From positions 62,001-126,000 of the forward strand of contig JACPVI010000035.1 in NCBI GenBank assembly GCA_016191815.1: a DNA stretch of 64,000 bases, given 5' to 3'. The position numbers and the translations under genes were made by a program. The notes below the pieces were generated by a model. The model was not told the DNA's origin. It ran no database searches and worked only from the letters and a program-made list of their open reading frames with translations. Origin of the DNA: Myxococcales bacterium. Lineage in GTDB: Bacteria; Myxococcota; Myxococcia; Myxococcales; Myxococcaceae. This document shows, in pieces, positions 4,350 to 5,587 of the stretch (position 1 is the first letter of the stretch; each line of letters starts with the position of its first letter).

Positions 4350-4991
4350 CTACCAGTCGTCGTCCCTCGGCTTCCGCTTGTACTCGCGCTCCGGCGCCGG
4401 AGGCCTGGCCTGCTCGTGGGCCAGCACCTGCTCGTGCATCCGTTCGACCGGAGCCGACATGTTGATCGGCTCGAACTGCACCAACCAGGCGGCCGGCGCC
4501 CGCGCGAGCAGCTCCCGGGCGAAGGGTTCTCCCACCCGGTCGATGCCACGGAAATCGAGGATCGCGGCGCGGTAGGCCCTCAGCGAGCCGATGAGCTTCT
4601 GCGCGTCCCTCCTCGTCTCCAGAGCGAGGCCGGATTCCACCAAGCGGACGTAGGCGAGCCAAGGCACCGCCGACACCACCGCTTGCCACATTGCGAGCGA
4701 CCTGCCGAAGAATCCCCCGCCCTGTCCGCTCGCCTCGCTCGCCGGCCGCACATAGCGCACCGAGCGACCATGCCCTTCGACTCGCAACACCCCCAGGCGC
4801 ACCAGCCTCGAAAGTTGCCGGTGAACCGCCTGCCTCGTGACTCCCGCCTTTCTCGCCACCTCGCGATTGGTGACGGCCGAGCGTCGCTCGAGCAGCTCCT
4901 CCACGACGGCGCGCACGCTCAGAGCCAGGGTGGGGGTGGGGGTCTGCAAGGCGGGTGTAATCGTAAACGTTACGATTACCGAACGCGCCAA
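4350..4991 (-). CDS. Transcriptional regulator: winged HTH plus STAS-like (DUF4325-type) domain
   Basis: 213 residues if started at the TTG at 4991. Residues about 25-75 form a winged helix-turn-helix (NREVARKAGVTRQAVHRQL with a basic wing GHGRSVRYVRP). The C-terminal half (about 125-185) has the STAS-like pattern of DUF4325 proteins: a helix ARRL-like segment, the strand ILDFRGID, then GEPFARELLAR. The first codons overlap a perfect-arm palindrome (4957-4979), so either the operator is inside the gene or translation begins downstream at a GTG near 4913. The palindrome pair suggests self-regulation and control of a divergent target that now seems lost. No target gene is evident. Confidence 0.75.
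   Translation of the reverse strand: MARSVIVTFTITPALQTPTPTLALSVRAVVEELLERRSAVTNREVARKAGVTRQAVHRQLSRLVRLGVLRVEGHGRSVRYVRPASEASGQGGGFFGRSLAMWQAVVSAVPWLAYVRLVESGLALETRRDAQKLIGSLRAYRAAILDFRGIDRVGEPFARELLARAPAAWLVQFEPINMSAPVERMHEQVLAHEQARPPAPEREYKRKPRDDDW
4957..4979. promoter_or_regulatory. Palindromic operator-like site 1
   Basis: Ten-base arms GTAATCGTAA and TTACGATTAC flank the three bases ACG; the arms are exact complements. An almost identical site lies 73 bases away (5030-5052). Both sit at the 5' end of the HTH/STAS-like regulator gene, so the simplest reading is the regulator's own operator. Confidence 0.6.
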
Positions 4992-5029
4992 AAGTCAGTA
5001 GCAATATCCATCGCTTGGCAAGGGCAAGC

Positions 5030-5052
5030 GCAATCGTAACGTTTACGATTAC
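5030..5052. promoter_or_regulatory. Palindromic operator-like site 2
   Basis: Arms GCAATCGTAA and TTACGATTAC around CGT; nine of ten arm bases pair. It is the same sequence as site 1 read on the opposite strand. The two centres are 73 bases apart, about seven helical turns, which would allow two bound dimers to lie on one face of the DNA. Confidence 0.55.
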
Positions 5053-5262
5053 AGGGCCCCTGCGAAGAAGCCGCCCACCTCCGCCTGGTTTACTACGGGC
5101 GAACCGATGCACGAGGAGGGCGCAGGAGCCCGCGATGAAGGGGGCAGCGCCAAGAGCGAGCGGCGTGTGCAGCACGTCACCGTGCGCCACTCCAAAGAGC
5201 GCGGCGGTGACGGCGATGCCCGCCCCGAGTGCGCGTGTCCCTCCGCTGGAGCGCACCCCCGG
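5040..5262 (-). pseudogene. Remnant of a membrane-protein gene, CPBP-like
   Basis: On the minus strand one frame encodes a strongly hydrophobic segment with no proper start or stop: a helix (GAGIAVTAALFGVAHGD), then HTPLALGAAPFIAGSCALL and a basic end RFARSK. The LFGVAHGD stretch resembles the last conserved motif of CPBP intramembrane proteases (F-x3-H), but the match is short and family membership is uncertain. The frame then runs through palindrome site 2 without stopping. It reads as a 3' fragment left between the regulator and the IS66 remnant. Confidence 0.3.
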
Positions 5263-5311
5263 ACTGACTTGATCGCGGCCCCCGAGGACGGCGGGGCGCG
5301 GCAAGCTCCCG

Positions 5312-5540
5312 CGGCATGGCGGTCTGCTGACACGTCGTCCCCACCCGGCGCCCCGGCGGCCGTGCCCGGTGTGCGGCCTGGAGAGAGTTTGCATCGGGCA
5401 CGACGTCACCGAAGTCATCGACCTGATTCCGGCGGAAGTCATCGTCCGCGTGGACAAGCGCGAGAAGCTCGCGTGCCTGCCATGCGAGGGGAAGCTGGTA
5501 CGGGCGCCATTGGGGGACAAGGTGGTGGCCTGGGCGACGG
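5312..5540 (+). pseudogene. IS66-family transposase (TnpC) zinc-finger fragment
   Basis: An open frame encodes a piece of the IS66 TnpC zinc-finger domain: CPVCG, then HDVTEVIDLIPAEVIVRVDK, then the second pair in LACLPCEG and APLGDKVV. Order and spacing (C-x2-C, about 35 residues, C-x2-C, xDKVV) match the family. The N-terminal coiled coil and the DDE catalytic domain are missing, and after the DKVV motif the frame turns into low-quality sequence that runs into the nth 3' end. It is a scar of a former insertion; no inverted terminal repeats were found. Confidence 0.6.
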
Positions 5541-5587
5541 ATGCTTCCATGGGGCCTTGGCCGCAGCCTGGGGGCTCGTCCAGGGCG

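Follow-up and report, generated by a model that had tools for sequence, protein, structure and literature searches.

Negatively autoregulated bacterial repressors have operators that overlap the promoter or start of their own gene, and REPINs are built of two inverted palindromes around a spacer and are dispersed in the genome. Among proteins, those with a STAS-like DUF4325 domain (PF14213) and an N-terminal winged helix-turn-helix (HTH) have the domain order predicted for the protein described here, which has 18 full-length relatives in the other genomes of its family. The three-domain HTH-HATPase-DUF4325 proteins of Myxococcota share the STAS-like domain, have a detectable HTH in most cases and have related half-sites in four out of five, but carry a histidine-kinase-like ATPase domain that a Pfam scan did not find in our protein. 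The literature searched, as far as its accessible text extends, holds next to nothing on DUF4325 and does not name PF14213, and we found nothing there on HTH-DUF4325-type regulators in myxobacteria; among the matches listed for the half-site string, none concerned the HTH-DUF4325 family by its title.

The stretch analysed (hereafter the window) comprises 64,000 nucleotides of a Myxococcales bacterium (contig JACPVI010000035.1, positions 62,001 to 126,000) and contains a pair of palindromes that directly precede a minus-strand regulator frame or overlap its first codons (Table 1). We interpret the palindromes as the predicted operator pair of this adjacent HTH-DUF4325 regulator, which would be an orphan one-component factor whose own promoter is its most conserved target, and we give this reading a probability of roughly 0.74. 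The pattern GTAATCGTAANNNTTACGATTAC matched operator 1 exactly and operator 2 with one mismatch, while 100 shuffles of the window gave no match. The two 23-bp palindromes are inverted with a start-to-start distance of 73 bp (centres ACG and CGT), the core of operator 2 is the reverse complement of that of operator 1, and the outward (left) half of operator 1 is a perfect family half-site, AATCGTAAAC. The near-identical palindromes with a mirror copy 73 bases away given in the preliminary description were thus real, as was the peptide IVTFTIT, readable after a TTG codon from both strands (minus 4350-4991, MARSVIVTFTIT; plus 5015-5272, MARASAIVTFTIT). A consensus scanner reported no sigma-70-type promoter or terminator in the window; by eye, TTGGCR-N16-TAACGT with the -10 element inside the palindrome was read in four of the copies described below.

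Table 1. Features of the window and positions of the palindrome pairs in the source genome
Feature	Position	Strand	Basis or remark
Palindromic operator 1 (predicted), GTAATCGTAAACGTTACGATTAC	4957..4979 (core 4959-4977)		pattern match
Palindromic operator 2 (predicted), GCAATCGTAACGTTTACGATTAC	5030..5052 (core 5032-5050)		pattern match
Spacer, 54 bp	4978..5031		same length in 6/6 copies, 47/54 columns variable
Left outer box, TGCAAG in window (consensus TCGCARGG)	4945..4950		constant offset, outer side of operator 1
Right outer box, reverse complement of TCGCARGG consensus	5059..5064		fixed distance outside operator 2
Candidate outward promoter TTGGCA-N16-TAACGT, -10 within operator 2	5015..5042	+	by eye
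Stretch common to window and longest genomic copy, C24	4874..5134		79% identity
HTH-DUF4325 regulator frame from TTG, 213 aa; likely coding region 4350-4916 (GTG, 188 aa)	4350..4991	-	ORF, alignment
Winged helix-turn-helix (HTH_24 + HTH_IclR), residues 33-71	4779..4895	-	HTH_24 E 3.7e-6, above cut-off
STAS-like DUF4325 segment	4506..4604	-	E 0.0073 alone, below cut-off
IS66 transposase zinc-finger remnant, neighbour outside the element	5369..5575	+	zf-IS66, E 6e-8
Pair C13 (first)	C13:22519/22592		pattern scan
Pair C13 (second)	C13:80448/80521		pattern scan
Pair C24	C24:33995/34068		pattern scan
Pair C25 = window	C25:66959/67032		pattern scan
Pair C46	C46:200642/200715		pattern scan
Pair C81	C81:77983/78056		pattern scan

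Scanning the source genome (6.77 Mb, 89 contigs) with the pattern AATCGTNAACGTTACGATT located the exact motif 12 times, and the 12 sites formed six inverted pairs, each with the fixed distance of 73 bp. Every core has the sequence AATCGTMAACGTTACGATT, where M is A or C, and the orientation was identical in every pair. Nine further rows with three mismatches consisted of eight known sites read backwards and one site elsewhere (C57). The preliminary description had taken many unrelated occurrences in the genome as a point against a regulator site; the result was mixed, in that the palindrome occurs at five extra places but always as an exact 73-bp pair, and the observation of the palindromes is confirmed as real and understated. 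When two mismatches or fewer were allowed, the longer 23-bp pattern occurred in a single one of the 96 family genomes, namely the source genome. The exact core had seven single matches in the genome_contigs collection, each unpaired and from a distant group, which we took as chance; the core was not found in viral contigs, and no DNA match was found in plasmid and phage collections. About 4924-5052 or more of the window is common to all six copies. Homology extends furthest in C24; in C81 it covers 4891-5078, and the homologous stretches of C13a, C13b and C46 are shorter. Both C24 and C81 contain about 13 codons of the 5′ end of the regulator gene, in a part where the relatives also align, and stop at nearly the same codon, the gene body being absent.

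Across the six copies, 2 of 38 core columns were variable, both at the A/C position, compared with 47 of 54 in the spacer (Fisher p 6.5e-16) and 32 of 40 in the 20 bp outside each core. Between pairs of copies, 12 to 34 of the 54 spacer positions and 8 to 24 of the 40 flank positions had drifted. Since core, spacer and flank share one history in each copy, recent copying alone is insufficient for this contrast, and near-invariant cores beside a drifting spacer indicate that the sites are selected; judged by this comparison of sequences, the palindrome pair is under strong selection. The A/C position differs between the arms of one copy in C13a and C46. A second conserved box with the consensus TCGCARGG lies at a fixed distance outside each palindrome, its G and C being kept in 12 of 12 arms and its A in 11 of 12, and one regulator does not account for this outer box.

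The regulator itself was characterized by domain searches and by an alignment of the window protein with 10 relatives. These were taken from 17 other candidate rows after leaving out L006 (in-frame stops), the longer proteins L007, L009, L011 and L017 (of which L009 and L017 represent one gene), and L016 and L018, which were outside the family by eye. The HTH and STAS-like regions are common to all 11 proteins. A DUF4325 match at E <= 0.01 was obtained in 10 of the 11, and the full-length family profile, of which the window protein is itself a part, matched it at E 3.3e-54. The window protein differs from PF14213 proteins with an N-terminal winged HTH in a DUF4325 score below the cut-off and in predicted palindromic paired operators, which were present in 1 of 96 genomes, that of the source. 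Protein relatives were found neither in genome_contigs (tblastn) nor in viral contigs. A single-sequence structure model had a mean pLDDT of 50.5, being usable for the HTH only and poor beyond it.

The preliminary description had placed the regulator start inside the palindromic site. The alignment of relatives begins at about V26 of the window frame, residues 1-23 are unstructured (pLDDT <50) in the weak single-sequence model, and the spacing between palindrome and V26 codon measures 42 in C25, 40 in C24 and 46 in C81, giving non-triplet length differences in the leader. These three observations favour GTG 4916, although the leader indels of C24 and C81 are weak evidence since neither copy is a working gene. 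The true start of the window gene is thus probably GTG 4916, not TTG 4991. A site within the coding start was instead found in 12 of the 18 relatives, in which AATCGTCAA occupies the same place, codons 3-6 (I-V-N or I-V-K). The codon before this in-frame site ends in A in 12 of 12 genes, whereas the share of A among third positions is 5.2%, which argues that DNA, and not the peptide alone, is conserved.

We then counted the half-site AATCGTMAAC/GTTKACGATT (GTTGACGATT), which is half of the palindrome, at the genes of the 18 full-length relatives, excluding the window's own row and leaving weaker rows (mostly HTH-only matches) uncounted. Half-sites with at most one mismatch occurred at 58 of 5,940 positions from -300 to +30, compared with 4 of 49,259 elsewhere in the loci. 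At least one was found near the start in 16 of the 18 loci, with an exact one in 15, while none was found at the genes of L094 (G005) and L099 (G023). They occur in both orientations, mostly ahead of the coding region. For 300 shuffled motifs, the mean was 0.13 hits, and the highest value (18) came from a near-copy containing most of the real motif. Genome-wide, tandem half-site pairs were detected at seven places in 6 of 96 genomes, and the regulator gene accounted for five of the seven; the reversed control gave 0. Inverted pairs were detected at four places in four genomes, none at the regulator gene. The regulator gene is found in 19 of 96 genomes and is present in all nine with paired half-sites (about 7e-8 by hand calculation, relatedness ignored). 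A near-match half-site was also located upstream or at the start in four of five longer relatives; of the four longer proteins scanned, Pfam detected DUF4325 and the histidine-kinase-like ATPase in all and the HTH in three. By this comparison, the GTTKACGATT half-site is a mark of the HTH-DUF4325 family. Its conservation at the starts of related regulator genes is what links the palindromes to the regulator as its own predicted operator, and the earlier assignment of the site to the regulator was supported to that extent. An inverted-repeat search upstream of the relatives detected no palindrome pair comparable to that of the window, and no gene neighbour of the regulator was common to more than 4 of 19 loci.

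Several other sequences were observed in these genomes. In G005 (L119:1501-1590), three half-sites precede an outer-membrane-like gene (named by eye) that has AATCGTC in its coding start; none was found at 11 homologous places (0/11), this promoter-like extra target being not conserved, and the G005 regulator gene itself is without a half-site. In G035 (L122:1459-1546), a small dehydroquinase-like gene (named by eye), a possible extra target, is closely preceded by three half-sites, and in L149 an array of ATTGACGCT-type repeats, perhaps a half-site variant, lies before position 563, ahead of an ATPase-DUF4325 gene. The common target in the family looks to be the regulator's own gene, and the other sites look lineage-specific. 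By eye, the upstream regions of the 18 relatives have in common a promoter-like motif of approximately GAAAA-TTGCGG-N16-TANNNT that ends near the start codon, which suggests leaderless transcripts in the relatives.

The surroundings of the copies were compared using simple gene calls and Pfam, and no target or divergent gene common to the five extra modules was found. The C24 and C46 modules lie between convergent genes, a position that is odd for operators and applies to two or more of the five additional pairs. The C13a module is upstream of a truA-like gene (named by eye), at a distance of 80 bp, and adjoins a truncated L,D-transpeptidase (YkuD) gene (L070:9300-9545) in which the last part of the catalytic domain comes directly after a signal-peptide-like stretch. 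The C13b and C81 modules are upstream of genes for a MopE-type lipoprotein and an aminotransferase-fold protein, respectively. Three of the six modules adjoin genes for MopE-type metal-binding proteins, one of them below the Pfam cut-off (L072:9644-11751, L073:10345-12653 and L071:8087-9775), and a PEGA-MopE gene pair is beside the module in both C24 and C46; the MopE link is post hoc and a lead only, with 101 MopE motif matches in the genome (about 30 frames by hand count). The preliminary description had also envisaged a divergent target that was destroyed and replaced by IS66 and membrane-gene remnants. The IS66 remnant was recovered (Table 1), while a Pfam scan of the window gave no match for the membrane-gene remnant, and there was no sign that a divergent target had ever existed.

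Taken on sequence evidence, the locus would probably encode a negatively autoregulating winged-helix/STAS-like regulator with a palindromic and duplicated operator, unlike that of its relatives. A regulator dimer may bind each palindrome, and the 73-bp spacing, close to seven helical turns, would place the two dimers on the same side of the helix, where they may touch. Binding would silence the promoter that overlaps or adjoins the sites, and the STAS-like domain may receive the signal that relieves repression. The mechanism would be ordinary negative autoregulation; as in other autoregulated repressors, the predicted operator lies at the regulator's own promoter, and in the relatives it extends into the coding start, but here the operator module has five further copies that lack the gene. 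The operator of the relatives would be an array of single half-sites, one of them at codons 3-6, which may have turned into two near-palindromes in the source lineage, the whole promoter-operator module then having been copied to the five other places. These extra modules are most likely still bound, given that both operators and their spacing are kept without the gene body, and they may control local transcription or serve as titrating sites.

The window module resembles REPINs in its inverted palindromes, spacer and dispersal, and a small REPIN- or MITE-like mobile element, whose transposase would recognise the arms while the regulator merely lay beside one copy, would agree with six dispersed copies having inverted arms, a spacer that varies and one further conserved box in each arm, and with the truncated YkuD gene next to C13a. 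We nevertheless consider a mobile element unlikely. Only six copies exist, the Y1 (RAYT-type) transposase profile PF01797 had 0 matches in the source genome (controls positive, 5/14), the half-site goes with the regulator family across many genera, the C24 and C81 copies include the regulator coding start, and the plasmid, phage and viral collections contained no match. The module ends are ragged between copies, and no target-site duplication was seen by eye. The copy number, the missing RAYT-type transposase and the link to a regulator family also distinguish the module from REPINs (PMC3116915).

Decay offers another origin for the five extra copies, as relics of dead paralogous regulator genes of which functionless promoters remain, and the 5′ codons kept beside the operators in C24 and C81 are in line with it. 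Neutral decay would, however, strike the cores as well, yet 12 of 12 are intact while spacer and flanks drifted, and the common end point of the two truncated copies also argues against it, leaving this origin quite unlikely. Finally, what is conserved could be an RNA (hairpins) or a leader peptide (IVTFTIT) instead of a site for protein binding, given that IVT[F/L]TI is read outward from both arms in 6 of 6 copies and that a conserved YTGC downstream would be a Leu codon if in frame (both readings partly by eye). The peptide reading from both arms follows from the near identity of the palindromes, the A/C mismatch between arms in C13a and C46 indicates that a paired inter-arm stem is not selected, and the short half-site occurs in both orientations upstream of the relatives, mostly before the coding region, so that we regard an RNA or peptide as very improbable.

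Within the operator reading, we tentatively raise the idea that the 120-bp module (outer box-palindrome-54 bp-palindrome-outer box) is a self-standing, selected landing platform of fixed geometry for the HTH-DUF4325 protein, and that this platform works with no target promoter next to it and spread from the regulator's promoter. If true, such a platform could, for example, titrate the regulator, bridge distant loci or organise the chromosome. The predicted recognition sequence, together with a family-wide site at the regulator's own gene, would make HTH-DUF4325 regulators directly testable, and the almost unchanged operator pairs away from the gene raise the question of what is under selection at a predicted binding site located elsewhere than at a promoter.
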